Shown here: one piece after another, positions 1 to 24,778 of the stretch
Position numbering within the stretch: position 1 is the first letter of the stretch
Layout: each line of letters opens with the position of its first letter
From: a virus
Virus record (IMG/VR): IMGVR_UViG_3300006921_000133
Location: 1 to 25,481 of that record
DNA: 25,481 bases
Reading direction: 5' to 3' (one strand)
Position numbers and translations under genes: made by a program
Notes under the pieces: model-generated
Database searches by the model: none
Told to the model about the DNA's origin: nothing
Seen by the model: only the letters and a program-made list of their open reading frames with translations

Positions 1-822
1 AACAACTTCTTTTAGATAAAGGTTGTTACCATTCGCCTTAACTCTTATACACGCTAAAGGGTGATTAATACCCCAATCAACTCCATAAAAAACGTGGTCA
101 TAATCTTGAATCTCATCTTTGTAAGTTGACCATTCAGGATAGATTATCTCTTTACCCTTAAACACTACCCCCCTACCATAGATAGACCACATACGCTCAT
201 CAGCAGTACCACTTGCTATGTTTATAGCAGTTGGTGCATAACCCTCAATTTCTTTGACTATTGAAGCTGGTAAGAATGGGTTGTCTTGAAACGTGCTTCT
301 ATACATCTTAACGTCTTCACGCTCTTCTAACTTATACACCCAGCTTTGAGGTGCTGATGGGTTGCAATCTAATATAAAACCCTCTTCACATCTTTGGTTT
401 AACTGTCTAAATGTATGTACATATGTGCTTACTACTTCATTTATGTAGAATAAGTCATTTCGTAACCCATAAACACGCATAGGGTCATCTAATAAGCCTA
501 TAAAGGTGATGTTATTGCCGTTTAGTGTAGCAGTCATATCACTTTTATTAATCTTTACGTTTGGTGCTAAAGCTGGAAAGCCAAAGCCACAACATAAATT
601 GGTAAAGTCTTTAAGGGTTGTACGCTTTAGATTAACCAAAGTGTCCCTACAAATAACTATCTCTTTACCAGTATTTTTAAGACAGTAAACAATTAACCAT
701 TGAATTGCTGATATAGTCTTAGATGACCTTGTACCACCTATTAAAACAATACCTCTATTGTTATAAATATTCTCTTCAATAAATTGGTAGTTGCTTGTTA
801 CTTCAATGTCTAATTTAGCCAC
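1..822 (-). CDS. terL: Terminase large subunit, C-terminal part cut by window edge
   Basis: This is the ATPase-nuclease motor that packages phage DNA into the prohead. The visible 274 residues contain a Walker A motif GGTRSSKT at residues 29-36, a Walker B-like stretch DLFYINE at 123-129, a coupling motif DCNPS at 152-156, and the start of the nuclease domain with its first metal-binding Asp in YGVDWG at 246-251. The frame is open to base 1, so roughly a third of a usual 420-450 residue TerL lies outside the window. The start is taken as GTG at 822: an in-frame TAA lies seven codons upstream and no ATG lies between. It is separated from the small subunit gene by a 74-residue gene with its own promoter, which is unusual. 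The terminase call is firm; the exact start is less so. Confidence 0.93.
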   Translation of the reverse strand, partial: MAKLDIEVTSNYQFIEENIYNNRGIVLIGGTRSSKTISAIQWLIVYCLKNTGKEIVICRDTLVNLKRTTLKDFTNLCCGFGFPALAPNVKINKSDMTATLNGNNITFIGLLDDPMRVYGLRNDLFYINEVVSTYVHTFRQLNQRCEEGFILDCNPSAPQSWVYKLEEREDVKMYRSTFQDNPFLPASIVKEIEGYAPTAINIASGTADERMWSIYGRGVVFKGKEIIYPEWSTYKDEIQDYDHVFYGVDWGINHPLACIRVKANGNNLYLKEVV

Positions 823-849: not shown

Positions 850-872
850 AAAGGGAGAATCTCACCCCCTTG
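850..872 (-). terminator. Hairpin between the 74-residue gene and terL
   Basis: On the minus strand AAGGGGG, a seven-base loop and CTCCCTT form a seven-pair stem with one G-U pair. It lies about 20 bases after the stop at 892 and 28 bases before terL. It belongs to a family of similar hairpins at 6539, 10425, 24740 and 25357. The T-rich tail is stronger on the plus strand side (TTGTTTTT), so it may act in both directions or be leaky towards terL. Confidence 0.5.
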
Positions 873-891
873 TTTTTATGCTATTTCGTTA

Positions 892-1116
892 TTATTCAAA
901 TGAGTTTAACCAATTCTTTAATTGCTTAAATGTATCAAAAGCTACACAACAACTATTGCTATCTAAACAATCATCTAAATTATCGCAACCATTAGCAATC
1001 CAAAAATTAGTGTTTACTCTTTGGTTAAAATCTCTTGATTCTATATGCCGACATATAAATGTCTCTTCTTTCCCTTTAACCTTGTAAATTCCTTTTGATA
1101 TTTTTGTAACCTTCAT
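892..1116 (-). CDS. Small protein of unknown function (74 aa), moron-like
   Basis: I do not recognise this protein. It begins MKVTKISKGIYKV, contains three cysteines near the C-terminus in CLDSNSCCVAF, and ends in a probable helix with a tryptophan (FKQLKNWLNSFE). A longer reading from a TTG at 1182 is possible, but it would run through the promoter at 1152-1183, so ATG at 1116 is preferred. That ATG is preceded by a leader almost identical to the leader of the gene at 10450-10815. The gene sits alone between terS and terL, with a strong promoter before it and a hairpin after it. This layout is typical of a moron, an accessory gene transcribed separately from its neighbours. A role in host takeover or anti-defence is only a guess. 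Confidence 0.75.
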   Translation of the reverse strand: MKVTKISKGIYKVKGKEETFICRHIESRDFNQRVNTNFWIANGCDNLDDCLDSNSCCVAFDTFKQLKNWLNSFE

Positions 1117-1151
1117 AATAATTAATTTAGTTTTTGTCGTTGTTGACACTT

Positions 1152-1183
1152 CAAATATAAGTAAACTATATAGTTCTACCAAA
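1152..1183 (-). promoter_or_regulatory. Bacteroidetes-type promoter for the 74-residue gene
   Basis: On the minus strand TTTG (1180-1183) is followed by 20 bases and then TATATTTG (1152-1159), matching the Bacteroidetes primary sigma consensus (TTG, about 19-20 bases, TANNTTTG). The stretch above the -33 box matches the one at 6826-6847, and the part from the -7 box to the ATG matches 10815-10858. The leader is about 35 bases long. Confidence 0.8.
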
Positions 1184-1272
1184 TAAATATATACTTTTTT
1201 TTAATGTTTTTTTTACTTTGTAGTGTTTACAAGGGTTATAGAGATAATTTTTTTTTATTTTTAGATAGTCAT

Positions 1273-1722
1273 TTACTCGCCCAGCTGGTAATTGTCTTTT
1301 TTATTGGTAATTACGTTAACATTCAACTCTGTTACCTTCTCTTCAACCTTTACCTCTTGCTTATCAGTTAAGCCATTTAGCCTTTGCGTAATAGATGCGT
1401 TGTATTGACCAACTGAGCCACCCTCTATTTGGTCATTCCTAATTTCATCAAGTATGCGCATACAGATACTACGATAGGCTTCGTATGAATTGTCTGTATT
1501 ATTAAAATAATGATGCACAGTAAAGCCTACTGTATGACAATACGCTCTAAAACCTGACAATGTTAATGGTCTTTCTAATAGTTCGTATTCGCTTCTTCCC
1601 TCCTTACCTACAAAGGTGTGTTTTTTTCGTGGGTTGTCCTTTACATCTTTACGATATACTTCAAACAACTCTAAAAGTTTTTCGGGAGTTTTTATGTACT
1701 TCTGCTTATTAGGTGGCTTCAT
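1273..1722 (-). CDS. terS: Terminase small subunit (gp3-like DNA-packaging protein)
   Basis: This is the likely DNA-recognition subunit of the packaging motor. The N-terminal half has the pattern I recall from the gp3-type DNA-packaging family: KYIKTPEKLLELFEVYRKDV, then NPRKKHTFVGKEG, then ERPLTLSGFRAYCHTVG. The length of 149 residues is normal for the family. Its start overlaps the stop of the upstream 67-residue gene in an ATGA arrangement (1719-1722), so the two are probably coupled in translation. It is the last gene of an operon of small genes that begins at 2986. TerL follows after an inserted small gene. The call rests on recalled family motifs plus the terL neighbour. Confidence 0.8.
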   Translation of the reverse strand: MKPPNKQKYIKTPEKLLELFEVYRKDVKDNPRKKHTFVGKEGRSEYELLERPLTLSGFRAYCHTVGFTVHHYFNNTDNSYEAYRSICMRILDEIRNDQIEGGSVGQYNASITQRLNGLTDKQEVKVEEKVTELNVNVITNKKDNYQLGE

Positions 1723-1922
1723 CGTTTCTTTTTAATGGTTTTTTCTTTTGCCCAGCCACTCTTATAGCTTTCTGCTCTTATCTCTTGCATTGCTAAATAA
1801 AGCATATTTTTAGCATCTTCAATGGTTAGAATGTCGTTTTTAAAGTCAGCTAACACACTTTTAATATCTTGACAGTTTTCTATCCTTCTATCTTTACGCT
1901 TCATTAGTTCTGCATACTTCAT
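1719..1922 (-). CDS. Small charged protein upstream of terS (67 aa)
   Basis: Function unknown. The protein is rich in Lys, Arg, Glu and Asp, looks mostly helical, and ends in a basic tail (KEKTIKKKR). It overlaps terS by four bases and starts nine bases after the membrane-protein gene at 1932, so it is part of the same operon. Its place next to terS allows a packaging or early accessory role, but nothing in the sequence shows one. Confidence 0.7.
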   Translation of the reverse strand: MKYAELMKRKDRRIENCQDIKSVLADFKNDILTIEDAKNMLYLAMQEIRAESYKSGWAKEKTIKKKR

Positions 1923-1931
1923 TTTTTTATT

Positions 1932-2150
1932 TTAAAGTAGTGAGTAAATAGTATAGATTAATCCTACAATGATAAACCTAATAATAATAGGTGTTAGTTC
2001 TTTGGCAGTCATTACTCTGCTCTCTAAGGCGTTTATTTTCATATGTGGTAAGAAAGCTATAATGAATCTATCTAAGTAGCTTACAGTTAGCTGGAGTACC
2101 ATTAAAACGATTCCTAAAAGTATTTGTGATATGTATTTTAATTTCTTCAT
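1932..2150 (-). CDS. Small membrane protein with two predicted helices (72 aa)
   Basis: Function unknown. Two hydrophobic stretches are visible: residues about 7-26 (ISQILLGIVLMVLQLTVSYL) and about 53-71 (LTPIIIRFIIVGLIYTIYSL), separated by a short polar loop. A basic N-terminus (MKKLK) suggests the first end stays in the cytoplasm. It lies in the early small-gene operon, far from the lysis genes, so it is not an obvious holin. Superinfection exclusion or membrane-targeted host takeover would fit but is not shown. Confidence 0.72.
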   Translation of the reverse strand: MKKLKYISQILLGIVLMVLQLTVSYLDRFIIAFLPHMKINALESRVMTAKELTPIIIRFIIVGLIYTIYSLL

Positions 2151-2166
2151 TTTGGTAAGATACTAA

Positions 2167-2367
2167 TTATTTTTCATTTATTTTAATTGGTCTTTCTATC
2201 CTATACTCTAAACTCTCCCTATTTATGGTTAGTTCAGAGCCTTGTGATGTGTTTATATAGAGTAAACCATCTATTGAATCTAAACACTTTGAATCATAAA
2301 CAAAATGCTTAACAAACAATTCATTTTTCACTTTATACTCAATTACAAACATTGCTTCATTTTCCAT
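2167..2367 (-). CDS. Small protein of unknown function (66 aa)
   Basis: I do not recognise this protein. It looks like mixed beta strands (FVIEYKVKNELFVKHFVY at the N-terminal end) and ends in IERPIKINEK. It starts three bases after the stop of the winged-helix gene at 2371 and is followed closely by the membrane-protein gene, so it is co-transcribed with them. Confidence 0.65.
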   Translation of the reverse strand: MENEAMFVIEYKVKNELFVKHFVYDSKCLDSIDGLLYINTSQGSELTINRESLEYRIERPIKINEK

Positions 2368-2370
2368 ATT

Positions 2371-2727
2371 TTATCTATTTAGTTGATAATGTAAACTATC
2401 TCTAACAGTTGTAATTGAGTTAATTCTTTCATCTAATGACTTTATGTAGTCACTTATCTCTATACTATCATTAGACACATAATAACCTCTGCTGGTAGCT
2501 AACAATAAAGGTATAATATTGTTTGCTCTTATGTAGTGTATTATTTTTCTTAATCTTACATCTGAAATTTTATATCCCATTGCTTTTAACGCTTTACAAA
2601 TAGCACTATTGGTTATAGCTTTGTCTTTACCTTGTTTGGTATTTAAGCCTTTTACAACAATAGGTAATAATGTATCTAATTCGTATTCGTTTAATTCTTT
2701 TGTTCTGTCCTCAAAATTAGTTATCAT
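2371..2727 (-). CDS. Winged-helix-like protein (118 aa)
   Basis: Probably a small DNA-binding protein. After an N-terminal region with LNEYELDTLLPIVVKGL there is a helix-rich block (SAICKALKAMGY and ISDVRLRKIIHYIRANN) followed by a beta hairpin with RGYYVSND, an order typical of a winged helix-turn-helix fold. A helix with SLDERINSITTVRD closes the protein. Similar proteins are, from memory, common and unassigned in Bacteroidetes phages. I chose ATG at 2727 rather than 2796, since the longer reading overlaps the upstream gene by 59 bases and adds a stretch unlike the rest. The DNA target is unknown. Confidence 0.75.
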   Translation of the reverse strand: MITNFEDRTKELNEYELDTLLPIVVKGLNTKQGKDKAITNSAICKALKAMGYKISDVRLRKIIHYIRANNIIPLLLATSRGYYVSNDSIEISDYIKSLDERINSITTVRDSLHYQLNR

Positions 2728-2737
2728 AGCTTTTAAT

Positions 2738-2986
2738 TTAAAATAAATCCCAGCAAAATATGGGAGTAGACTCTCCAACATAAATTGAATGTACATTATA
2801 ATTAAAGTATTCTAACGCTTCTTCTTTAATCATAAAATTCAATTTTTCGTTTATTATCTCTATACATTTAGCTACTGAATAAATCAATCTCATAGAATGC
2901 TCATCTATTCCTATTATAGCACCATCAAAACCATCTGCTTTTAGTAACTCTTGTCCTTCGTATAATTCTATTAATTTTTCTAACAT
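2738..2986 (-). CDS. Conserved small phage protein of unknown function (82 aa)
   Basis: I recall this type as recurring in phages of Bacteroidetes, with the pattern ADGFDGAIIGIDEHSMRLIY, then a helix, EEALEYFNYNV, and YVGESTPIFC near the end. No function is known to me. It is the first gene of the operon that leads to terS. Its start lies only five bases below the T-run of the terminator hairpin at 2992-3025, leaving no room for a promoter, so its expression must depend on transcripts that read through that hairpin. Confidence 0.8.
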   Translation of the reverse strand: MLEKLIELYEGQELLKADGFDGAIIGIDEHSMRLIYSVAKCIEIINEKLNFMIKEEALEYFNYNVHSIYVGESTPIFCWDLF

Positions 2987-2991
2987 AATTT

Positions 2992-3025
2992 AAAAAAAAA
3001 TGCCCTCACTATTTAAAGTAAGGGC
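2992..3025 (-). terminator. Rho-independent terminator after the SSB gene
   Basis: On the minus strand an eight-pair stem (GCCCTTAC with GTGAGGGC, one G-U pair) is followed by nine T residues. It starts seven bases after the stop of the gene at 3032-3364. The T-run ends five bases before the next start codon at 2986, so it can also be read as a leader attenuator for the following operon. Confidence 0.88.
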
Positions 3026-3031
3026 GTATTA

Positions 3032-3364
3032 TTAAAATGGTAATCCTGAGCCATCATCTACAATAGGTGTAGATTGTTCTACCTTGTCACATCTCCAATG
3101 ACTTAAATTATTATAGATTTTTCCGTTGTACTCTTTGCCTCGTATTGAAAACTCTACTTCTACATTATCCCCTACTTTATTATACGAAATAAAATTGTCA
3201 ACGTGTTCTGCATACTCTGCTTTGTTGTACATATTAAAGCTATACGGTGTAGTATATCCGTTGTCACTTGTTTCAGTTACTGTGTAGTCTAAAACAACTG
3301 CTCCGTTATCTAATGTTTTCTTCTCTCCTATCTTCGTGATAGTTCCTTTCATTTTGTAATTCAT
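3032..3364 (-). CDS. ssb: Single-stranded DNA-binding protein, DUF3127-like
   Basis: Likely binds and protects single-stranded DNA during replication and recombination. The 110 residues form a beta-rich body of OB-fold size (GTITKIGEKKTLDNGAVVLDY, VEVEFSIRGKEY, NLSHWRCDKVE) and end in an acidic tail DDGSGLPF. That tail resembles the DDDLPF-type tip of bacterial SSB, which recruits partner enzymes. From memory, DUF3127 proteins of Bacteroidetes have this layout. It is followed by a strong terminator and lies in the recombination region downstream of the exonuclease and ERF genes. The assignment rests on the tail, size and context. Confidence 0.75.
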   Translation of the reverse strand: MNYKMKGTITKIGEKKTLDNGAVVLDYTVTETSDNGYTTPYSFNMYNKAEYAEHVDNFISYNKVGDNVEVEFSIRGKEYNGKIYNNLSHWRCDKVEQSTPIVDDGSGLPF

Positions 3365-3392
3365 TTTGTTTAACTTTTTATCGGTTATTTGC

Positions 3393-3400
3393 TAAATATA
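3393..3400 (-). promoter_or_regulatory. Possible weak promoter before the SSB gene
   Basis: The minus strand has TATATTTA 29 bases above the SSB start, one base from TANNTTTG. No TTG box is seen at 19-20 bases upstream. The 88-base gap between the ABC-GNAT and SSB genes holds no other clear signal. Confidence 0.25.
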
Positions 3401-3452
3401 AGCATTTTATTTTAAACTATTATTTGTTTTTGTTTATGATTTAAAATTGTTT

Positions 3453-4631
3453 TTAAAACATACTGATTTGATTTTGAGCAACTTCTTTATAGGCATTCGC
3501 ATTAAAAGTTAATATATTTATGTTCTTTTTGTGTTCTTGTCCAATATACTTGTAACTTTTAGTTACGCTTTCCTTTCTTAATTTTAAACCATTATCTTTT
3601 CCTTCTTCTAATAGTTTTTTGTTTGTTTTTTTTATTTGATTAATATTATTATTTTGATTTGTTAAAAGCCAATTATTATCATTTCTAACCATACCTTTAA
3701 ATAAAGAAGGATTTGAAGTTTTTATATATAGTGTTTTATTATCTTTTTTATACATAGAGCCAAAAATATTAAGTATTTTAATACCTATACCTAAACCTTG
3801 AAAGTCAGGTAAAACTACTAATCTGCTAACTCTAAAAGCGTTTTGTATTGTTCCACTTGGCATTGGTAATATAGCAATAAAAGCAGCTGGTTTATCATTA
3901 AACAACATTAAAAAACATTTAGCCGCTTTATTTAAATCTTGACTTAAATAATGATGTTGCTTGAATATATCCCAAGTTTCATATCTACATCGAAATACCT
4001 GTAATTCAATTTTTGGTCTTTGCCTTCGACAAGACGCTTTCTCAAGACGCCCTTTTAATGGTGAATAAGTCCAATCTGGTAACAACCATTCCATAATATC
4101 AAAATGACACGATGCAAGTATTATTTTTTTATTGTATTTTCTAATATACTTTTGTAAAGCGTTACTCATTGCTTTTGCTACATCTCTATCAACCACACTT
4201 GTAAATTCATCAATTAAAATAACTTCGTTTTCAGAGGCTTTCCCAACTTTATAAGCCAAAGAGGCTCTATATTGTTCGCCATTACTTAATAAACTAAATG
4301 GTCTTAACCAAGTTGGTACAGAAGCCAAACCCATTGCAGATAATAAAAATGTAGCTTCTTTAGGTTCTAACCAATCAAAATTACTAATTAAAGGCTTATT
4401 TTCATCAAATTTATCAATAGTTAAACTACCAAATTCTTTTAATAAAGTAGTTTTACCAGTTCCAGAACCGCCATAAATAACACCTATATTCCAATCAAAT
4501 GTTTTACATTCACTAAAGTTAATAGGTATTTTTACACTTGTCTCTTCTTTGTTTTGTATATCAAATGCTTCGTAAACATATTCAGTATATTTGTCATTTA
4601 TTATCTTATTTTTTCTTTCAATATATTTCAT
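3453..4631 (-). CDS. ABC-type ATPase fused to a GNAT acetyltransferase-like domain
   Basis: A two-domain protein of 392 residues. Residues about 1-195 form an ABC-type ATPase: Walker A GGSGTGKT at 54-61, signature-like LLSNGEQYR at 114-122, Walker B VILIDE at 137-142, D-loop-like SVVDRD, and a switch His in SCHFD at 174-178. Residues about 206-320 look like a GNAT acyltransferase, with the acyl-CoA-binding motif LVVLPDFQGLGIG at 271-283. The last 70 residues are Lys and Asn rich. No membrane segments or transporter partner are present, so this is not a transport ATPase. It resembles the soluble class described as ABC-type ATPase fused to an acetyltransferase (COG2401 type), whose substrate I do not know. 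It sits between the exonuclease and SSB genes, which hints at a nucleic-acid task such as modification or recombination. The substrate is open. Confidence 0.85.
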   Translation of the reverse strand: MKYIERKNKIINDKYTEYVYEAFDIQNKEETSVKIPINFSECKTFDWNIGVIYGGSGTGKTTLLKEFGSLTIDKFDENKPLISNFDWLEPKEATFLLSAMGLASVPTWLRPFSLLSNGEQYRASLAYKVGKASENEVILIDEFTSVVDRDVAKAMSNALQKYIRKYNKKIILASCHFDIMEWLLPDWTYSPLKGRLEKASCRRQRPKIELQVFRCRYETWDIFKQHHYLSQDLNKAAKCFLMLFNDKPAAFIAILPMPSGTIQNAFRVSRLVVLPDFQGLGIGIKILNIFGSMYKKDNKTLYIKTSNPSLFKGMVRNDNNWLLTNQNNNINQIKKTNKKLLEEGKDNGLKLRKESVTKSYKYIGQEHKKNINILTFNANAYKEVAQNQISMF

Positions 4632-4635
4632 CGTT

Positions 4636-5418
4636 TTATTTTAAAGTATTATAGTACACTCTTGCTAACTCAACTTTCTCTTTAATACGTTTTATGTCTT
4701 CACCACATAATGTTACATCAAATGATTTTACACGCTCCCAAATTGGGATAGCTGATAAATCAAAATAGGCTCTAACCTCATCTTCAACCTCTTGGCTTAC
4801 CTCTCCAGCTTCGCCACGTTTCCAGCTTACTCTTCTCATTTCATCTAATATAATCATCTCAGGAGTAGGTACAAGACAATAGCTTAAATAGGCTTGATGT
4901 ATGTTTGTGAGCCAACAGTATGCTTTTAGTTGCCATTTGTAATTAGTGTTCTTTAATTCATTATCAAAGAATGGGAATGTTGATGCACTCCAGCTTGTTT
5001 TAACATCAATAATAAATTCATCGGTTATTACATCGGGAGTACCTTTTACATAATCGTTTTCAAAGTGTTCATTGTTCTTGTAAAGACATTCTTTATCCAT
5101 CATAGTCTCAACCAACTCAATACTCAAATGTTCTACTTCATTTCCCTTATCAAAGTATTTTGAATTAATCTCTTTTTTGACACCATAATTATTTTCTAAC
5201 CATAACTCTTTAATGTAAGTCTTAGCACCAATAGATAGTTCAGGCTTTGCATCTCTTTTTTCAATTAACGAATCTCTTAACTCTGCTTGTTTGTCAGTCA
5301 ACTTAATTTTAGATAGCAACCCCTCTAACGTGAGAAGTTGCTTATCTGTAATTTTATTCTTTGCATCATCTGACATTATTTTACCTAACTGCGATGCTCT
5401 TATTTTTAGTTCTGCCAT
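4636..5418 (-). CDS. YqaJ/lambda-type recombination exonuclease
   Basis: Likely a 5'-3' double-strand exonuclease of the PD-(D/E)XK superfamily that makes single strands for the annealing protein. The core is visible: an acidic helix KGNEVEHLSIE at about 91-101, GTPD at 126-129, the active-site IIDVKT at 136-141, and the following helix with Gln (WQLKAY at 162-167) typical of YqaJ-type nucleases. The N-terminal 60 residues are a helical extension. At 260 residues it is close to the family's usual size. It lies in a tight operon: ERF at 5613, a 63-residue gene, this nuclease and then the ABC-GNAT gene, with gaps of 1-4 bases. Pairing with ERF gives a two-component recombinase like lambda Red. 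Confidence 0.88.
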   Translation of the reverse strand: MAELKIRASQLGKIMSDDAKNKITDKQLLTLEGLLSKIKLTDKQAELRDSLIEKRDAKPELSIGAKTYIKELWLENNYGVKKEINSKYFDKGNEVEHLSIELVETMMDKECLYKNNEHFENDYVKGTPDVITDEFIIDVKTSWSASTFPFFDNELKNTNYKWQLKAYCWLTNIHQAYLSYCLVPTPEMIILDEMRRVSWKRGEAGEVSQEVEDEVRAYFDLSAIPIWERVKSFDVTLCGEDIKRIKEKVELARVYYNTLK

Positions 5419-5419
5419 C

Positions 5420-5611
5420 TTATAATTCTTTAAGTTTTAAAATTATTTCAATGTCTTCATTACTTAACTTTGAGTAAATATCAAATAGTTTACTTCTAAA
5501 TCCTAAAGGCTCTTTTTTACATATACCATCATCAAATAAGGTAGCCTTTCGGTATAAACTTGTATCAATTAAAGTTAATTTGTTTATTAATCTATTTCTT
5601 TTTTCTGACAT
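5420..5611 (-). CDS. Small protein between ERF and exonuclease (63 aa)
   Basis: Function unknown. The protein is mostly helical and ends in LSNEDIEIILKLKEL. It is separated by a single base from each neighbour, so it is translated within the recombination operon. A role as an accessory of the ERF/exonuclease pair is suggested only by position. Confidence 0.68.
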   Translation of the reverse strand: MSEKRNRLINKLTLIDTSLYRKATLFDDGICKKEPLGFRSKLFDIYSKLSNEDIEIILKLKEL

Positions 5612-5612
5612 C

Positions 5613-6206
5613 TTATAATAGTTTTAATGATGCTTTTTGTACATCACCTAATTCAAAGCCTTCTAACATCTTTAAAAATGCCTCTTTAGTTATGTCTCCG
5701 TCTTGCACCTTATCAATACCTTTCTGAAATCTACCTTTTGAAATAGCTGGTTTATCTTTGCCATAGTTATTTAAACCAACGCTCACTTTGTTTGGTATTT
5801 GTTCGCCACTTGCATCGTTATCTAAGTCTGTCACTATACCCAAAATCGAACTCAATGAGTACCTTTTTAAATAAGTCACGGCACTACCCAAAACTTGAAA
5901 ATCATTCATTTTAGCTAACTTAACGTCTTGTGGTATATCTGTAATACTTTTAATTGTTTCACCAGTTTCAACGTGGAATAAAATAGTTTCTATTGTCTTA
6001 CCATTTAGAAGTTGCGTAAAGCCTAAACCATTCTTTTTAAGTAGTGGATTAATTACCTTAAAAATAGTCGGTAAGTCGCTGTAAGTATATCCGTAACCTT
6101 TAGTTGCTTTGTGGATAGTTGGACACTCTTGTTGAAAGTTAGCAAGGCTTTTATAGATGCTTTGTTTTCTGTCCTCTAAAATTGATTCAAATGTTTCTTT
6201 ACTCAT
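5613..6206 (-). CDS. erf: ERF-family single-strand annealing protein
   Basis: Likely anneals complementary single strands in phage recombination. The N-terminal part matches the ERF superfamily: a helix with LANFQQECPTIHKA, GYGYTYSDLPTIFKVINPLL, then the diagnostic GSAVTYLKRYSLSSILGI followed by an acidic DLDNDA. The C-terminal tail of about 60 residues is variable, as in the family. Length 197 residues is normal. The gene opens the run of recombination genes and starts five bases after the small ribbon-helix-helix-like gene at 6212. Confident call. Confidence 0.92.
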   Translation of the reverse strand: MSKETFESILEDRKQSIYKSLANFQQECPTIHKATKGYGYTYSDLPTIFKVINPLLKKNGLGFTQLLNGKTIETILFHVETGETIKSITDIPQDVKLAKMNDFQVLGSAVTYLKRYSLSSILGIVTDLDNDASGEQIPNKVSVGLNNYGKDKPAISKGRFQKGIDKVQDGDITKEAFLKMLEGFELGDVQKASLKLL

Positions 6207-6211
6207 AATTT

Positions 6212-6391
6212 CTAAATTTTATTTTTGTTAAACTCTTTTAAATCGGCTTCAATCTCTTTGGCTATTATGTCTACTGCATAATTAACTGCCGTTGTATTAT
6301 TTGATTTTAACCCCAGAACTTTCATCTCTTTTTTAATGATGTCTAAGTTCCTCTGACTTGGTGCGTATAAACGCATTTTTTTGTTTTCCAT
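6212..6391 (-). CDS. Small ribbon-helix-helix-like protein (59 aa)
   Basis: A 59-residue reading frame in an otherwise unexplained gap. It starts MENKKMRLYA and continues with two probable helices, LDIIKKEMKVLG and TTAVNYAVDIIAKEI. A short strand followed by two helices is the layout of ribbon-helix-helix DNA-binding proteins such as Arc. It stops five bases before the ERF start, so it probably belongs to that operon and could control it. The family call is by shape only. Confidence 0.6.
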   Translation of the reverse strand: MENKKMRLYAPSQRNLDIIKKEMKVLGLKSNNTTAVNYAVDIIAKEIEADLKEFNKNKI

Positions 6392-6413
6392 TTTTACTTT
6401 GTTTTTGTTTATA

Positions 6414-6524
6414 TTATTGAAATCCTAAATTCATATCCTTTTCCTCTTCTGACATTTCTTCTATCTGCTCTTCTGTAAATCCGTTACACAAAAGCAATGT
6501 TTCATAATACTCTTCTTTACTCAT
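6414..6524 (-). CDS. Acidic micro-protein (36 aa)
   Basis: A 36-residue reading frame that starts MSKEEYYETLLLCNG and carries eleven Glu or Asp residues in its C-terminal two thirds. It lies between the hairpin at 6539-6557 and the ribbon-helix-helix-like gene. Its start context (AAAACT before ATG) is like that of neighbouring genes, and its spacing fills the operon neatly. The first three codons match those of the ERF gene (ATGAGTAAAGAA). No known function; it may be the first gene of the recombination operon. Confidence 0.5.
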   Translation of the reverse strand: MSKEEYYETLLLCNGFTEEQIEEMSEEEKDMNLGFQ

Positions 6525-6538
6525 AGTTTTAAAATTAT

Positions 6539-6557
6539 GGGAGGAATTTCACCTCCC
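6539..6557 (-). terminator. GGGAGG/CCTCCC hairpin after the 61-residue gene
   Basis: A perfect six-pair stem GGGAGG with CCTCCC around a TGAAATT loop, nine bases after the stop at 6567. On the minus strand it is followed by ATAATTTTAAAAC; on the plus strand by TTTGTTTT. It is nearly identical to the hairpin at 10425-10442. It probably works as a terminator, perhaps in both directions. Confidence 0.6.
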
Positions 6558-6566
6558 TTTGTTTTG

Positions 6567-6752
6567 TTACTTAAATAGATGTTTGTTTTCCTCCCACCAC
6601 TTTTTAGCTTCAGATTCTGATTCAAACTTTTTGTAAGGCTTTCCACTTCCTGTTACTACATTTGGAGCTTTTCCTAAAGAGCCTAAATCAAGAATTCCAA
6701 CTAACAGCTCGTAATCTCCGTTTTTTCTTTTTGTTACTGTTCCTGTATTCAT
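6567..6752 (-). CDS. Small protein with own promoter (61 aa), moron-like
   Basis: I do not recognise this protein. It starts MNTGTVTKRKNGDYELLVG, looks beta-rich at first, and ends in a tryptophan-containing helix (SEAKKWWEENKHLF). It has a private strong promoter at 6798-6829 and a hairpin behind it, between the NinG gene and the recombination operon. This is the second copy of the promoter, small gene, hairpin unit seen at 850-1183 and 10425-10880. The C-terminal helix loosely resembles the ends of the other two cassette proteins. Function unknown. Confidence 0.75.
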   Translation of the reverse strand: MNTGTVTKRKNGDYELLVGILDLGSLGKAPNVVTGSGKPYKKFESESEAKKWWEENKHLFK

Positions 6753-6797
6753 ATTAATAGTTTTTATTATACCATATCATTCGTTCAATGGCATACA

Positions 6798-6829
6798 CAA
6801 ATATATATATACTTTTTCGTTCTACCAAA
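6798..6829 (-). promoter_or_regulatory. Bacteroidetes-type promoter for the 61-residue gene
   Basis: On the minus strand TTTG (6826-6829), 20 bases, TATATTTG (6798-6805). The upstream stretch AAAAAAAGTATATATTTATT before TTTGGTAGAAC is shared with the promoter at 1152-1183, and the spacer end GAAAAAGTATATATATATTT is shared with the promoter at 10851-10880. The leader to ATG 6752 is about 40 bases. Confidence 0.82.
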
Positions 6830-6850
6830 TAAATATATACTTTTTTTCAA

Positions 6851-7369
6851 TTATTTTAAAAGTTTTTTGTACTTCTCAATAATAGCAAGTAGTTCAGAGC
6901 GTAAATATTTTTTAGTAATATGCCGATTTTCTTCTAAATACTCTACTTTTTCTATTCCTATCTTTTCGATTAAGTTAATCCGATACTCTAATAAATTACC
7001 ACTAAGAAAGGTATTACAGTATTCACATTGCAAGTGAACGTTATGCTCGTTAAAAGTTAGAAATTTACTTTTCCCTGATGCTATATAGTGACCAGCGTTA
7101 ACTTTTTTAGGTGTAGGATTCTTGCAAGAGATACAAGGTTGTCCAGCATCACGCTTTCTTATCCAAGAATTAAACACTATTTGGGTAGACTTCATTAAAG
7201 ATTGTAAAGTTTCAGCTTTCTTTTTTTTTGATTTAGTTTCTTTTTTAACTCTCTTAAACATCTGAGCCTTTAAAAACTCAAAGTATAAATCATTACACTC
7301 ATCTTTGGTGCAGTATTTTCTATTGAATTGTCTTGGCTCAAAAACTACTTTACAATTCTTACACTTCAT
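6851..7369 (-). CDS. ninG: NinG/Rap-type recombination protein
   Basis: Similar to lambda NinG (Rap), a structure-specific nuclease that resolves branched recombination intermediates. The N-terminus has a zinc-finger pattern (CKNC at 3-6, then YC and C at about 19-25). The C-terminal half has the NinG core: CISCKNPTPKKVNAGHY, SKFLTFNEHNVHLQCEYCN and LSGNLLEYRINLIEKIG, with the Cys and His residues of an HNH-like zinc fold. Length 172 residues is near the usual 160-200. The gene starts with a one-base overlap with the 89-residue gene upstream and lies just behind the helicase, as in many phages. Confidence 0.88.
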   Translation of the reverse strand: MKCKNCKVVFEPRQFNRKYCTKDECNDLYFEFLKAQMFKRVKKETKSKKKKAETLQSLMKSTQIVFNSWIRKRDAGQPCISCKNPTPKKVNAGHYIASGKSKFLTFNEHNVHLQCEYCNTFLSGNLLEYRINLIEKIGIEKVEYLEENRHITKKYLRSELLAIIEKYKKLLK

Positions 7370-7638
7370 TAGCTTAGTATTTTCATCATTTTTTTAATAG
7401 ATAACATACCTTGACATTCGTTAAAAGTATATTCTGCTAACTTCATATAATTTAAGTCAGATTCGTAAAACTTCAATAGGAGCGTTTTAAGACACTTTCT
7501 CGCACTCAATGGTAGTAATATACTCCCAAATCTATTACGTATCTTAAAATGGCTCTTATGTATCTCTAAATGGCTTATAAGTAGTTCGTAACTATAAACC
7601 TCATAATGAACGTCTGTTATTTTATTAAAAGTTATCAT
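7369..7638 (-). CDS. Protein of unknown function between helicase and ninG (89 aa)
   Basis: Function unknown. It has alternating strands at the N-terminus (FNKITDVHYEVYSYELLISH) and a helical basic C-terminus (YTFNECQGMLSIKKMMKIL). The start overlaps the helicase stop by 14 bases and the end overlaps the ninG start by one base, so all three are probably translated from one transcript. Confidence 0.68.
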   Translation of the reverse strand: MITFNKITDVHYEVYSYELLISHLEIHKSHFKIRNRFGSILLPLSARKCLKTLLLKFYESDLNYMKLAEYTFNECQGMLSIKKMMKILS

Positions 7639-8569
7639 TGTGTTTTATTTTAATTTGTTTTTCGATTAATGGCTCGGCTTCATATCTAAATCCGTTTTTA
7701 AATTCGTAGTATTGCCCAGTTTTTACATCGTAGCTTAGTGATGTTGCACCTCTTATTCCCACTATCTTTGGCTTTGCTTTCGCTATAATTATAGAACTGC
7801 TATTACTATTAAAATCTCTATCTACAATTATGATACTTTTACCATTGTTACCCCATTCTGAGCCACCCTTTAAACTATGTATGTCGGGTGCTATTGTTTT
7901 ACCCTCTTTGTCTTTTCTTGCTTTTGTTGGGTGTATTACAGTATGAAAGTGCATCTTTGAGCGTTCTGCTAATTCATTTCTAAAACTTAACGTGTCTTCG
8001 AGCCATTTGTCTTCCCTTGCAAAACCCTCAACATCGTGGCGCATATAATTCCAGCTATCAATTACTGCTGAAAATACACCCAACTCTTTTTGGTTGTCAA
8101 CGCTGAACTGCCAAAACTCTTTAGGTGTTAATGCTTTTGAATTAGTTTTTTTTTTAGGGTCTAAAATCTTAAAGTATTCCATCACTATTGGTAGATAATG
8201 TGCTATTTCACTCTCACTAACTCTATCTTGAATTAGCACTCTTTCACCTAAATCATTATAGTAAAACTCATCAAATTGCTTACCACTTAGCTTGTGAATT
8301 AATTGACCAACAACCTCCTCAATAGTACCAGCATCAGGCATATGTATTAGATGCTTATGTCTATAATATCGTGAACAATTTTTTAGTAAGTCTAACAATA
8401 ACTCGGTTTTACCACTACCAGCGTACCCAGTCCAATCAGTACAACCACCCTCTTTTATTGAGTAGTGTTTAGCTAATGACTTGTAACCTACAAAGTACGT
8501 TTTACCCCCACCATTCAAGTAAAAATTCATTAATCTATCTTTAATTTCTCCCTCTTTTACAATGTCCAT
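7625..8569 (-). CDS. Replicative DNA helicase, DnaB/RecA-fold, without N-terminal domain
   Basis: Likely unwinds DNA at the phage replication fork. The 314 residues hold only the RecA-fold motor: Walker A GYAGSGKTE at 48-56, a Walker B strand VFSAVIDSW, and late motifs resembling DnaB (FHTVIHPTKARKD, then APDIHSLKGGSEWGNNGKS and IIVDRD). A separate primase-interaction domain of the usual bacterial DnaB is missing, so it is shorter than the 440-470 residue norm. It overlaps the putative loader gene by one base (TAATG) and the next gene by 14 bases. Together with the DnaA-like and loader-like genes it forms the replication block. Confidence 0.85.
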   Translation of the reverse strand: MDIVKEGEIKDRLMNFYLNGGGKTYFVGYKSLAKHYSIKEGGCTDWTGYAGSGKTELLLDLLKNCSRYYRHKHLIHMPDAGTIEEVVGQLIHKLSGKQFDEFYYNDLGERVLIQDRVSESEIAHYLPIVMEYFKILDPKKKTNSKALTPKEFWQFSVDNQKELGVFSAVIDSWNYMRHDVEGFAREDKWLEDTLSFRNELAERSKMHFHTVIHPTKARKDKEGKTIAPDIHSLKGGSEWGNNGKSIIIVDRDFNSNSSSIIIAKAKPKIVGIRGATSLSYDVKTGQYYEFKNGFRYEAEPLIEKQIKIKHNDNF

Positions 8570-9189
8570 TATTGTTGTGTTTTAATAATTTCTAATTTTT
8601 TTTGCCCTAATTCCCATTGCTCTAAGTCTGTCAAATCTTTAGCTTGTTGTTTAATTGGGTATTGTTTTTTTAGCCAAGTGTTTGCAGTTAAATATAAGCT
8701 GGTGTACTTATTATTCTTAGCAAAGTTTTCAATAGCATCTAAAATTTCATTAATTTGAATTTTTGACCAATGTACACTTAATTTTTTAATCTCTTTTTTA
8801 CTTATGCTTAAATGTTTAAACGCTCTGTATATATCTTTATCTTTAACATTATCTTTAACATTAACATTATCAGGTTTTTTAGGTTTGATTAGGTTATTTT
8901 TTAACCCAATAGGTTTTTTAGGTTTTTTTTGTAGTGGTGGTCTACCTCCCAGCTTTCCATTTTCCCTACTTTTTTCTGCTCTAACCTCCCACTTTTTTAA
9001 ATCACGCTTTAGATTTTGCTTAACTGACTCAAAAGCAATGTCTATAATTAGGTTTTTTGTCGTTGGGTTTTGGTCGTTAATATATCTTAAATAATGCTTG
9101 AAAAATTCCCCAGCAGTTTCATTATCCATTTTTTCGATTGTATGGATAATGTCGCAATAAAGCAAGACCGATTTTTTGTTTTCTGCCAT
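8569..9189 (-). CDS. Putative replication initiator/helicase loader, DUF6291-like
   Basis: Probably brings the helicase to the origin. The first 90 residues (VLLYCDIIHTIEKMDNETAG, FFKHYLRYINDQ, KWEVRAEKSRENGKLGGRPP) resemble the DUF6291-type domain that I recall from phage replication proteins. Next comes a low-complexity linker rich in Lys, Pro, Asn, Val and Asp (about residues 87-120), then a C-terminal helical domain with ANTWLKKQYPI. The linker codes for direct repeats in the DNA that may be the origin (see 8833-8930), as in lambda gene O. It overlaps the helicase gene by one base. The loader role is inferred from position and layout. Confidence 0.72.
   Translation of the reverse strand: MAENKKSVLLYCDIIHTIEKMDNETAGEFFKHYLRYINDQNPTTKNLIIDIAFESVKQNLKRDLKKWEVRAEKSRENGKLGGRPPLQKKPKKPIGLKNNLIKPKKPDNVNVKDNVKDKDIYRAFKHLSISKKEIKKLSVHWSKIQINEILDAIENFAKNNKYTSLYLTANTWLKKQYPIKQQAKDLTDLEQWELGQKKLEIIKTQQ
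8833..8930 (-). repeat. Repeat cluster inside the loader gene, possible replication origin
   Basis: Read on the plus strand, ATCTTTAACATT occurs twice back to back (8839-8850 and 8851-8862), preceded by ATCTTT at 8833. AGGTTTTTTAGGTTT occurs at 8872-8886 and again 39 bases on at 8911-8925. Between them lies the palindrome GGTTA-TTTTTT-region-TAACC (8892-8906). The whole block is extremely AT-rich and falls in the linker-coding part of a replication gene, the place where lambdoid phages carry their iterons and origin. Confidence 0.45.
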
Positions 9190-9197
9190 AATGTTTT

Positions 9198-9524
9198 TTA
9201 ATATTTTAGTTCTAAAAAAGTTTTAATGTCACGAATGTTATTTCTATAAACCTTATCTCCAGTAATCGTTAAATTGTGATGACATTTTATACCATAAATA
9301 ACTGTTGCGTGGTCACGATTAAACATTAATCCTATCTTAGTAAAAGATAGTTTTGTATTTTCCTTTAAAAACCACATCAGGTAGTAGCGTTGATGCACTA
9401 AATACTGCTTTCTGCTTTTTTTTCTAAAATCCTCCAAGTCTATTATCTCGCATATTCTTGGAATCCAATTTGTTTGGCGTTTATACTCTGCGTATGTCAT
9501 TGTTTTAATATCGTTTGCTTCCAT
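9198..9524 (-). CDS. Stand-alone DnaA domain IV-like DNA-binding protein
   Basis: The C-terminal part matches the DNA-binding domain IV of DnaA: a helix RKQYLVHQRYYLMWFLKE, then LSFTKIGLMFNRDHATVIYGIK at about 59-80, closely following the DnaA signature in which RDHSTV and a following helix contact the DnaA box. There is no AAA+ ATPase, so at 108 residues this is a domain IV-only protein. It lies directly before the loader-like gene with its repeats and before the helicase. It may recognise the phage origin or compete with host DnaA. Its start overlaps the stop of the 82-residue gene by one base. Confidence 0.85.
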   Translation of the reverse strand: MEANDIKTMTYAEYKRQTNWIPRICEIIDLEDFRKKSRKQYLVHQRYYLMWFLKENTKLSFTKIGLMFNRDHATVIYGIKCHHNLTITGDKVYRNNIRDIKTFLELKY

Positions 9525-9772
9525 TATATTTCTACGTTTATTTTATTTACTAACTCATCTATCTCAAGTACTATCGAATTAAAATAGTCTTGCTCTTCTT
9601 TGTCCATTAAACGACCAATAATATTCAATTTTGATTCTATTGTTTTAAGATAGTTATTTGTCTTTTGTTTTAACTCTTGTTTAAAAATAACTGCTTCTGA
9701 AAGTTCATCAATGGAGTGTATCAGACTTTGGAGCTGGATAAATATTTTTAAAGTTGTTTTAATGTCTTTCAT
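9524..9772 (-). CDS. Helical/coiled-coil protein (82 aa)
   Basis: Function unknown. Nearly the whole sequence is predicted helical, with heptad-like hydrophobics (LKIFIQLQSLIHSIDELSEA, and later YFNSIVLEIDELVNKI), so a coiled coil is likely. Its ATG overlaps the stop of the 59-residue gene upstream (ATGA), and its stop overlaps the DnaA-like gene start by one base. It is part of the replication operon. Confidence 0.7.
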   Translation of the reverse strand: MKDIKTTLKIFIQLQSLIHSIDELSEAVIFKQELKQKTNNYLKTIESKLNIIGRLMDKEEQDYFNSIVLEIDELVNKINVEI

Positions 9773-9948
9773 TTTTTTAATTGTTTTATAGATTTTGGTT
9801 TTAGTTGTTCTCTTATGTTTTCTGCAATCTCGTTAAATGTACTTGGCTTAACGTGTACTGTACTTTTAACCTTTGGAACATATACATTTTCTAATGTACT
9901 TTCTTTCTGCGTATTAAACGCTCTTTGAATTTTAAAGTTTGTATTCAT
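9769..9948 (-). CDS. Small basic protein (59 aa)
   Basis: A 59-residue reading frame in the gap upstream of the replication genes. It starts MNTNFKIQRAFNTQ, has VENVY-like strands in the middle, and ends in a basic Lys-rich tail (QLKPKSIKQLKK). It is linked to the next gene by an ATGA overlap at 9769-9772, and it lies three bases after the stop of the micro membrane-protein gene. The close packing supports it as real. Function unknown. Confidence 0.62.
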   Translation of the reverse strand: MNTNFKIQRAFNTQKESTLENVYVPKVKSTVHVKPSTFNEIAENIREQLKPKSIKQLKK

Positions 9949-9951
9949 CTT

Positions 9952-10032
9952 TTAGCTTATTAAAATTATTATTGATATAGCTATTCCTAAAATAATAGCT
10001 GTCACTACTTGTATTTTGTCGAATGTACTCAT
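9952..10032 (-). CDS. Micro-protein with one membrane helix (26 aa)
   Basis: A 26-residue reading frame made of a short head (MSTFDKI) and one hydrophobic helix (VVTAIILGIAISIIILI). Its ATG overlaps the stop of the acidic 122-residue gene by ATGA (10029-10032), and its stop is followed after three bases by the next start. Both couplings and the clean membrane helix support it as a real gene. It may be a small inner-membrane effector; nothing more can be said. Confidence 0.58.
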   Translation of the reverse strand: MSTFDKIQVVTAIILGIAISIIILIS

Positions 10033-10397
10033 AAAATCTCATTATATAGTTCTTGTGCTTCATTCTCAGCGATTCTCTCAATCTCGTAAACAATGTCATC
10101 TTTAAGTTTTTTGCTTACGTTAAGACTATCTAAAGACTCTCCCTCGACCCAAATGTCTTGTATGTCATAATCAACATATCTTTCGCTCTTATCAAAAGAA
10201 AGTTCAAAATCAACTGAATATTCTTTGCCACTTTCATCAATGAATGTCAATAGTCTCTTATTGTCGCTTGTTTCAATGTCAACATCGTAACCTTCTATTA
10301 GTTCGTGTGACTTAACTATGTACCGAGTGCCTATTGCATTTAGAACTGCCAAGTCGTGGTTTTCGTAATATTTTCCGTTAACTGAATAAATTTGCAT
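10029..10397 (-). CDS. Acidic protein of unknown function (122 aa)
   Basis: I do not recognise this protein. About 29 of its 122 residues are Asp or Glu against about 12 Lys or Arg, giving a strong negative charge. It is beta-rich in the middle (GKEYSVDFELSFDKSERYVD) and ends in a helix (IVYEIERIAENEAQELYNEI). It heads the chain of coupled genes 10397 to 9198 and follows the hairpin at 10425-10442. The charge would fit a DNA-mimic inhibitor, but many unrelated small phage proteins are acidic. Confidence 0.75.
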   Translation of the reverse strand: MQIYSVNGKYYENHDLAVLNAIGTRYIVKSHELIEGYDVDIETSDNKRLLTFIDESGKEYSVDFELSFDKSERYVDYDIQDIWVEGESLDSLNVSKKLKDDIVYEIERIAENEAQELYNEIL

Positions 10398-10424
10398 AAT
10401 AGTTTTTTTAAGTTTAAAAATTAT

Positions 10425-10442
10425 GGGAGGCTTTCACCTCCC
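10425..10442 (-). terminator. GGGAGG/CCTCCC hairpin after the 121-residue gene
   Basis: A perfect six-pair stem GGGAGG with CCTCCC around a TGAAAG loop. It is followed on the minus strand by ATAATTTTTAAAC and then, about 25 bases on, by the start of the next gene. It is almost identical to 6539-6557 and 24740-24760. It is probably a terminator; read-through would feed the replication operon. Confidence 0.6.
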
Positions 10443-10449
10443 TTTGTTT

Positions 10450-10815
10450 TTATATTAATTTTAAGTATTTATTAAATAAATTCTTTGCGTGATTTTCGTC
10501 TTTACACGACAATTTCATAACCCATTGTGGCACTATTAATCTAACGGTATCTTTACCAATGTTTTCTAAAAGCCAATCAGTTTTTTCATTGTCTAATATT
10601 AATTCATAACCAACCCATTTGTCGTTTTCGGAAATTGTCATAGACATTACGTTATGTTCCCAATAAGTATAAACTGCCATATATAAACCCTCAATATCAG
10701 CATAAGATTGATAGCTACCTATAAGATTAGAAGCAGTATTTAAAATTGTTTTCTTTGTGATATGACCAGAGTTTTCTTCCCATTCCTCATTTAAAAATTC
10801 TCTAACGTTTTTCAT
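10450..10815 (-). CDS. Protein of unknown function with own promoter (121 aa), moron-like
   Basis: I do not recognise this protein. It starts MKNVREFLNEEWEENSGHIT, has aromatic-rich strands in the middle (LYMAVYTYWEHNVMSMTI, DKWVGYELILDNE) and ends in a helix DENHAKNLFNKYLKLI. ATG at 10815 is chosen over a GTG at 10848, because the latter would lie in the leader shared with the 74-residue gene at 892-1116. The gene carries the same promoter and leader as that gene and the same trailing hairpin as 6539-6557. It stands between the metallophosphoesterase and the replication operon. Confidence 0.76.
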   Translation of the reverse strand: MKNVREFLNEEWEENSGHITKKTILNTASNLIGSYQSYADIEGLYMAVYTYWEHNVMSMTISENDKWVGYELILDNEKTDWLLENIGKDTVRLIVPQWVMKLSCKDENHAKNLFNKYLKLI

Positions 10816-10850
10816 AATAATTAATTTAGTTTTTGTCGTTATTGACACTT

Positions 10851-10880
10851 CAAATATATATATACTTTTTCAATAAACAA
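10851..10880 (-). promoter_or_regulatory. Bacteroidetes-type promoter for the 121-residue gene
   Basis: On the minus strand TTG (10878-10880), 19 bases, TATATTTG (10851-10858). From the -7 box to the ATG it is the same as the leader at 1116-1159 except for one base. Two inverted repeats lie just upstream at 10909-10942. Confidence 0.8.
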
Positions 10881-10908
10881 CACTTATTAACAAAAAAGAT
10901 GCATTTAT

Positions 10909-10942
10909 TTACAATTTAATTTGTAACTACTTGATAATCAAG
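10909..10942. promoter_or_regulatory. Two adjacent inverted repeats, possible operators
   Basis: TTACAA (10909-10914) and TTGTAA (10921-10926) form one inverted repeat with a six-base gap. CTTGAT-A-ATCAAG (10930-10942) is a perfect six-base inverted repeat around one A. They lie 30-60 bases above the promoter at 10851-10880 and just below the terminator at 10946-10972, so they would suit a regulator of that promoter. Confidence 0.35.
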
Positions 10943-10945
10943 CAT

Positions 10946-10972
10946 AAAAAAACCTCATTAAATTAATAATAA
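10946..10972 (-). terminator. Probable terminator after the metallophosphoesterase gene
   Basis: On the minus strand CTTATTA pairs with TAATGAG across a short AT loop (one G-U pair), followed by GG and seven T residues. The stem is AT-rich and therefore weak. It lies 28 bases after the stop at 11001. Confidence 0.45.
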
Positions 10973-11000
10973 GACTCTTTTTGTTTATGATTAGAGTAAT

Positions 11001-12074: not shown

Positions 12075-12107
12075 AAAAAAACCCCTCACAAAAAAATGCA
12101 AGGGGTT
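12075..12107 (-). terminator. Terminator hairpin in the leader of the metallophosphoesterase gene
   Basis: On the minus strand AACCCCT and AGGGGTT frame a loop and are followed by seven T residues. It lies about 70 bases after the u-spanin gene and 30 bases before ATG 12044, but below a promoter-like TATATTTG at 12152. It either ends the lysis transcript or attenuates the next gene. Confidence 0.82.
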
Positions 12108-12151
12108 AAAACTAAAATTATGAAAATCTAATTAGAACAATTAGACGTTCA

Positions 12152-12181
12152 CAAATATAATGCTTTTTTTTTAATAATTAA
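12152..12181 (-). promoter_or_regulatory. Possible promoter before the metallophosphoesterase gene
   Basis: TATATTTG at 12152-12159 on the minus strand matches TANNTTTG. A TTA, rather than TTG, lies 19 bases upstream at 12179-12181. It overlaps the end of the u-spanin gene. The leader of roughly 100 bases contains a terminator hairpin. Confidence 0.5.
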
Positions 12182-24727: not shown

Positions 24728-24739
24728 TATTTAAAATTA

Positions 24740-24760
24740 TAGGAGGCTTTCACCTCCCAT
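24740..24760 (-). terminator. GGAGG/CCTCC hairpin, fourth copy
   Basis: A GGGAGG-TGAAAG-CCTCC hairpin with the same loop and flanks (TGGGAGG before, TATAATTTT after) as that at 10425-10442. It lies 19 bases after the stop of the gene at 24779. A classical terminator follows it. Confidence 0.55.
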
Positions 24761-24778
24761 TTTTGTTAGTTAGTTTTT

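Follow-up and report, generated by a model that had tools for sequence, protein, structure and literature searches.

Control switches as possible plug-in points for swapping accessory genes in a virus that probably infects marine bacteria

A stretch of viral DNA analysed over its full 25,481 nucleotides (nt; the window, IMG/VR record IMGVR_UViG_3300006921_000133) carries three minus-strand units (853-1183, 6539-6829 and 10425-10880), each composed of one promoter, one small orphan gene (the cargo) and one hairpin. These units raise the question of whether each is a self-contained addition to the genome or whether small genes are exchanged behind promoters that already belong to the surrounding operons. 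We regard it as fairly probable that units 2 and 3 are slots in which cargo sits behind an operon's resident promoter, that unit 1 is a mobile copy and that exchange takes place at the control parts. Across the phages compared, the cargo varied between fixed flanking genes, aligned pairs had break points at the edges of the slots and leaders were reused. The initial annotation had described three such units at these places, with promoter spacers of 19–20 nt and products of 74, 61 and 121 amino acids (aa), and all of this was recovered; the units lie on the minus strand and have spacers of 20, 20 and 19 nt. All identified genes of the window lie on the minus strand. One of them, 4% of the query, matched Nonlabens phage DNA; TerL matched Bacteroides and Flavobacterium phages at <60%, and NinG matched many phages, Flavobacterium phages included, also at <60%. 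There was no close isolate among 50,697 phage records. These matches make a flavobacterium the likely host of this virus, a tailed phage and probably one of marine bacteria.

To compare the units with other phages, we searched 239 viral loci (L-numbers) by tblastn with their flanking genes and with the cargo genes of units 1, 2 and 3 (U1-U3); L002 and L059, which are near-identical, and L001, a piece of the window, were left out. Site A runs from NinG to a short open reading frame (ORF) beginning MSKEEYY and holds unit 2, site B lies before a 122-aa core gene and holds unit 3, and site C is the terS/terL junction, which holds unit 1. Presence or absence of the small genes in relatives had been proposed as a check on the initial annotation, and the flanking genes indeed kept their order where the small gene varied or was absent. 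The opposite outcome, the same genes at the same places, was not seen at two of the sites; at the third, one near-identical contig carried the same gene.

At site B, relatives of the 122-aa gene were found in 14 of the 239 loci, which together with the window represent six distinct phages (window, L234, L235, L236, L240 and L241) at 27–77% identity, L241 being the one at 27%; L139-L141 were counted once because they look identical in the printed stretch. Five of the six carry different cargo: four have a single gene, and L241 has three small ones (a by-eye reading; these were not used as queries). In L161/L240, a promoter-like stretch with TATCTTGC, which is not the full consensus, leads straight to the 122-aa gene without cargo. 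The window and L234 are identical in 143 of 151 alignment columns over 150 nt ending exactly at the -7 box, after which identity is 45% in the leader, 34% in the cargo (20 shuffled controls: mean 31%, maximum 34%), 89% from the hairpin to the ATG and 74% in the next gene. On the other side, the MPE gene of the window had no tblastn match in L234, where the upstream gene is, by eye, a different phosphoesterase-like ORF. As the control segment is more alike than the core gene and both outer sides are replaced, this pattern is what recombination at a shared linker would be expected to leave.

At site A, 57 loci were taken, of which five had too little sequence and 52 were assessed, with the first ORF after NinG picked by rule. 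The close set comprises the window, L004, L008, L242, L005, L006 and L007, in which NinG is at least 59.5% identical (a line set afterwards; L058, at 59.1%, falls just below it). These seven have seven different first proteins after NinG, with no pair matching at E 1e-4; the -7 box follows NinG in five and the hairpin is present in two. Among all 52 loci, the box was found in 14 (absent in 38) and the hairpin in two, and the first genes fell into 25 clusters. In L014, L015 and L018, NinG is followed by TATATTTG and then directly by ERF (L014 and L015 look identical here), so the slot is empty in these phages. Alignments of the window with L008 and of L004 with L008 showed identity through the end of NinG, a break in the promoter or after the leader, and a return of identity at the hairpin or the next ATG. 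In L242 (3160-4040; G009), the slot holds by eye an HNH homing endonuclease-like gene, followed by a unit 2-like promoter and a 63-aa gene.

At site C, the gap between terS and terL is <100 nt in 76 of 92 other loci and larger in 16 (TerL 22–37% identical); seven of these 16 were read by eye and have other small genes inside the gap. An insertion of unit 1 between terS and terL is likely on this distant comparison. In L087 (~6400-7000), a TATATTTG box is followed by a gene that looks endonuclease-like by eye, and five other loci share the gap size. This L087 group suggests that box-driven insertions at terS/terL occur in other phages too.

The three promoters fit the Bacteroidota sigma-A consensus, TTTG at -33 and TAHHTTTG at -7 (PMC6847099, PMC9723704), unit 3 having TTG at -33. 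The pattern TTG-N17-23-TANNTTTG matched five times on the minus strand of the window, three of these being the unit promoters, and four times on the plus strand. The strict form TTG-N19/20-TATATTTG occurred three times in both strands, compared with a mean of 0.07 and a maximum of 1 in 100 dinucleotide shuffles. Sharing of control parts, which the initial annotation had noted for the boxes and hairpins, is beyond chance, extends past the boxes and recurs in other phages; the sharing of leader and promoter sequence beyond the boxes, and a fourth hairpin at 24730-24768, are additions to it. Units 1 and 3 agree at 93% over 56 nt of leader and -7 box, units 1 and 2 agree at 79% over 73 nt of promoter region, and the longest exact direct repeat in the window is 30 nt (at most 19 in 100 shuffles). 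Unit 1 is therefore composite, with a promoter half like that of unit 2 and a leader like that of unit 3. Sequence similar to what units 1 and 2 have in common (TTGAAAAAAAGTATATA) also lies 3' of NinG in L004, L008 and L006/L239, so the NinG site is the probable source of this part of unit 1. All three leaders have A at -3, -6 and -12 before the ATG, positions reported as favourable for initiation in F. johnsoniae (PMC6847099). No promoter-like box was found between the cargo stop and the next core start (69, 42 and 52 nt in units 1, 2 and 3). Elsewhere in the window (12075-12160), a fourth minus-strand TATATTTG at 12152-12159 is followed by a strong terminator hairpin at 12080-12107; between these and the phosphoesterase start there is no listed ORF, and a short leader RNA is possible.

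Reuse of control parts also links the sites. Four leader families were each found in two different slots: type I in unit 1 (site C) and unit 3 (site B), type II in L004 and L008 (site A) and in L221 (site B), type III in L006 (site A) and L230 (site B), and type IV in unit 2 (site A) and L162 (site B). A scan for leader II gave nine stretches; three of them are slots (L004, L008 and L221) and six are not. Within a single genome, L238, on the same contig as L219, has two units whose leaders look alike by eye, which indicates that sharing within one genome recurs. In an unrelated phage group (L243-L247), the conserved string TTGGTCTCAGATAACAACAC lies in a G+C-richer intergenic block.

Together, these observations suggest a model in which a resident sigma-A type promoter (TTTG/TAHHTTTG) would drive a swappable small first gene, with a leader apparently built for strong translation of the Bacteroidota type. 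Part of the transcripts would then end at a short, G+C-rich hairpin whose U tail is weak, and read-through would feed the core operon (the 122-aa gene operon or the NinG-ERF region). Units 2 and 3 are read as slots because in their cargo-free, if distant, relatives a promoter-like box stands directly before the first core gene. The core operon is most likely served by this promoter as well, since no box stands between the cargo stop and the core start and several relatives without cargo or hairpin keep a box. From a shared promoter and a leaky hairpin, the cargo is predicted to be the first and most abundant product. Phages would swap cargo at the -7 box or leader and, at the opposite end, at the hairpin, probably with the phage's own annealing pair of ERF and exonuclease. 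Unit 1 would be a mobile copy placed between terS and terL, two genes that are direct neighbours in most of the distant relatives compared. More broadly, and only tentatively, one may picture a plug-in system of marine flavophages that works without an integrase: promoter blocks, leaders and hairpins would be both standard parts and ERF-exonuclease crossover sites, any small gene with such ends could come to lie first behind any early operon promoter, and the hairpin would set a high cargo-to-core ratio.

A different answer, in line with the initial annotation's suggestion of moron cassettes under a common regulon, is that the units are self-contained, with their own promoter and terminator, and are transcribed apart from the surrounding operons. 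A moron comprises one coding region, flanked by a promoter and a terminator and inserted where relatives have two neighbouring genes (PMC4378225); classical morons are expressed independently, from the prophage. Each unit does place a promoter, a gene and a hairpin between genes that adjoin in other phages, these relatives being distant at all three sites. For unit 1 the description is a good fit, and the box-preceded endonuclease-like gene of the L087 group indicates that the terS/terL junction accepts insertions; a relative (43%) of the L222 cargo in L108/L109 also lies, by eye, in what seems a free-standing unit. Units 2 and 3, in contrast, do not look self-contained: cargo-free relatives keep the promoter-like box before the first core gene, the window shares its promoter block with a phage that has other cargo (L234), the core operon has no second promoter box and the hairpin tails lack long U runs. 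Nor does the cargo have the deviant composition that is usual, if not strictly required, for morons, as G+C fractions of 0.28, 0.344 and 0.287 for U1-U3 lie within the range of small core genes (0.224–0.367; mean 0.293, s.d. 0.034). As an account of all three units, independent morons therefore seem rather unlikely to us.

The hairpins bear on how the slots would work. A degenerate pattern written from the unit hairpins matched four times in the window and not at all in 100 shuffles. The hairpins of units 1, 2 and 3 have folding energies of -8.9, -11.5 and -13.7 kcal/mol and tails of UUUCUAAU or AUAAUUUU; one of 200 shuffles folded as well as unit 2 and none of 200 as well as unit 3. Two canonical terminators of the window, at 3002-3025 and 12080-12107, reach -15.7 and -16.5 kcal/mol and have long U runs that the AUAAUUUU-like tails of the units lack. 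Given these weaker stems and U-poorer tails, the unit hairpins are most likely leaky. In 12 hairpins compared, a GNRA string (GAAA, GAGA or GCAA) follows the first loop U in all (read by eye), and the stems vary (GGGAGG/CCTCCC, GGGGG/CCCCC, GGGGA/TCCCC) and are out of register in the alignment; of the six that were folded, RNAfold gave the tetraloop for two (unit 3 and the fourth copy) and 7-nt loops for the remaining four. Fourteen viral stretches carry the hairpin together with its tail: six are units (L002, L008, L219, L221, L222 and L225), one is the L003 stretch described below, and seven show no such unit within 700 nt before the match. With a stricter tail, six viral stretches (five of them units) remained, compared with two stretches in 84,980 bacterial and archaeal genomes. 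A host origin of the hairpin was considered and rejected, as these two genomes, a Burkholderia and a Desulfobulbaceae bacterium, were judged by their taxonomy to be chance matches. Two further observations concern hairpins outside the units. A 183-aa ORF (24779-25330, minus strand) with weak matches to L244 (28%) and phrog_33370 lies between two hairpins (~25360 and ~24740), the latter a copy of the unit hairpin, and in L003 (7040-7067) a similar intergenic hairpin with tail lies on a 141-kb contig that has, by eye, a ribonucleotide-reductase-like gene.

The U-poor tail, and the fact that at site B the hairpin is conserved in one block with its tail and everything up to the following ATG (89%), would also suit a hairpin that belongs to the next gene. 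It would then be a 5' structure that affects how the core mRNA is processed, stabilised or translated, and not a terminator. We think this very unlikely, as the hairpin sits close behind the cargo stop, follows unrelated genes and precedes different ones (L219, L221, L222, L238), and the next genes in L004, L239 and L242 do without it. The least probable account is ordinary mosaicism, in which small genes near operon starts turn over everywhere and promoters and terminators are kept by need, without special exchange at control parts: 25 first-gene clusters in 52 NinG loci, 38 of them without the box, and mycobacteriophage module boundaries that mostly lack identifiable shared sequence (PMC3029335) agree with it, but a 150-nt block at 95% beside a core gene at 74% with unmatched genes on either side, four leader families reused across slots, and leader and promoter stretches common to units of one genome do not.

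Several observations weigh against slots behind resident promoters with exchange at control parts. The cargo-free relatives are distant, with NinG at 48–49% at site A and MPE at 62% at site B. At site C, the only close relative, L002, is 99.9% identical over 6,745 nt and has the same cargo; among the 92 terS/terL junctions, 13 contain the -7 box string, some without room for a gene, and in six of these 13 it precedes the endonuclease-like gene of the L087 group. Among the leader families, type III consists of 15 nt that match exactly, and the search pattern for type IV was derived from the two sequences it comprises. Type I (at most four substitutions) matched 11 other places in 251 sequences, none of them directly after a -7 box, the match in L049 having TATGTTTG ~12 nt before it; the type II core also occurs, without the box, in an unrelated phage group (L243, L245, L248). 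As RNA, the stretches of unit 1, L230 and L008 fold not clearly better than shuffles (27, 19 and 14 of 200 folded as well), and the plus strands of units 2 and 3 fold about as well as the minus strands. The hairpin, present in only two of the 52 NinG loci and in four of the six phages at site B, is optional.

What the cargo genes encode was addressed by several searches. U1-U3 had no tblastn match at E 1e-4 in the 239 loci, and U1, U2, U3 and the L008 and L222 cargos had none in 50,697 phage records; U3 had none in plasmids. In Pfam, neither U1-U3 nor eight other cargos reached a curated cut-off (best E 0.0072, for U2, at 16.1 of 24.5 bits). For 10 cargos, PHROGs (best E 0.019) and NCBIfam (best E 0.026) gave nothing significant, and PADLOC, whose models represent defence and not anti-defence, gave no match up to E 0.1; these family scans did not include the second cargo of L238. 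Families of anti-defence proteins were likewise not matched, as far as Pfam, PHROGs and NCBIfam hold them. Among PDB sequences, there was no match for U1 or U2 and a best E of 0.054 for U3, and AlphaFold2 models made without an alignment, at predicted local distance difference test (pLDDT) scores of 61 for U1 and 46 for U3, were too weak for a fold search. The initial annotation had held the small genes to be unrelated to one another, which agrees with an all-against-all phmmer comparison of 11 cargos and ORF 24779-25330 that gave no convincing relation (best E 0.019 in this small set). The sole exception to orphan status is the L222 cargo, 43% identical to a gene in L108/L109; at L108 4770-5200, and in L109, this relative lies in a promoter-gene-terminator unit that seems free-standing by eye. 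The cargo may have an accessory function, perhaps directed against the host; a role against host defences, which the initial annotation had raised together with host takeover, is a guess.

Rfam (gathering scores) and tRNA scans of the window gave no match. A DNA search of isolated phages with window positions 10000-11000 gave 41 records, and among the 20 listed there were only short matches covering at most 8% of the query. The ATPase-GNAT fusion gene at 3453-4631 (minus strand) shares 86% DNA identity with Nonlabens phage P12024S along 875 nt; megablast of window positions 1-25000 gave no further match in that phage, and a relative with 61% protein identity lies downstream of NinG in L007; this otherwise isolated match and the L007 relative suggest recent horizontal exchange of the gene. 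The positions of the units, their parts and their neighbours are given in Table 1.

Table 1. Positions in the window of the three units, their parts and neighbouring genes
Feature	Positions	Strand	Remarks
TerL, 5' part	1..822	-	core gene after unit 1; GTG start at 822
Unit 1 hairpin	853..869	-	GGGGGTGAGATTCTCCC; imperfect, G-U pairs; between cargo and TerL
Unit 1 cargo	892..1116	-	74 aa, orphan
Unit 1 leader	1117..1151	-	type I; AATTATT end before ATG
Unit 1 promoter	1152..1183	-	TTTG-N20-TATATTTG; upstream part resembles unit 2 promoter region
Terminase small subunit	1273..1722	-	core gene before unit 1
Exonuclease	4636..5418	-	possible ERF partner
ERF-like single-strand annealing protein	5613..6206	-	candidate exchange driver
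ORF MSKEEYY	6414..6524	-	36 aa; after unit 2; same site in L004 and L008
Unit 2 hairpin	6539..6557	-	ATAATTTT tail
Unit 2 cargo	6567..6752	-	61 aa, orphan
Unit 2 leader	6753..6797	-	type IV; inverted repeat
Unit 2 promoter	6798..6829	-	TTTG-N20-TATATTTG
NinG	6851..7369	-	core gene before unit 2
122-aa core gene	10029..10397	-	MQIYSVNG; after unit 3
Unit 3 hairpin	10425..10442	-	GAAA tetraloop when folded
Unit 3 cargo	10450..10815	-	121 aa, orphan
Unit 3 leader	10816..10850	-	type I
Unit 3 promoter	10851-10880	-	TTG-N19-TATATTTG
Promoter block	10851..11000	-	150 nt; 95% identical in L234
Fourth hairpin copy and tail	24730..24768	-	3' of ORF 24779-25330

The theme of accessory slots and morons is known, and what looks new is that the slot edges consist of reusable control parts. 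As in the morons of lambdoid and Mu-like phages, a lone small gene stands with a promoter and a putative terminator at a place where relatives have two adjacent genes; unlike these morons, units 2 and 3 sit behind a seemingly resident operon promoter, the control parts form families reused in several slots and the G+C content is ordinary. Accessory hotspots or regions of genomic plasticity, as in Pseudomonas Mu-like phages and in P2/P4, likewise have fixed core flanks and variable small genes, many without known function (PMC4378225, PMC9122126), whereas the slot edges here are the -7 box and leader, with the hairpin in some phages, and one slot reuses parts of another. Cluster K mycobacteriophages have Start Associated Sequences, short repeats before several non-structural start codons that are rare or absent in hosts (PMC3203893); here, the repeat spans promoter and leader, pairs with a hairpin after the gene and surrounds cargo that changes between phages. 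Their 13-bp GGGATAGGAGCCC-type repeat (3–7 bp before the ATG) is not in the three printed leaders, for which no motif search was made. In the linker model of phage mosaicism, short common DNA at module borders is the proposed crossover point (PMC3029335), and the linkers here are recognisable control parts: promoter, leader and hairpin. A literature search of partial coverage found no account of such slots in flavobacterial phages.

To our knowledge, few host-takeover or anti-defence genes are known from Bacteroidota phages. If our reading is correct, leader families, the hairpin with its tail and the fixed flanks would provide a sequence handle for finding early-expressed accessory genes in these phages, and the slots would point to the genes that are expressed earliest and most strongly after infection. 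The units would also offer a concrete example of how control elements can serve as linkers in phage mosaicism, in which the switches that control genes may double as plug-in points for swapping accessory genes.

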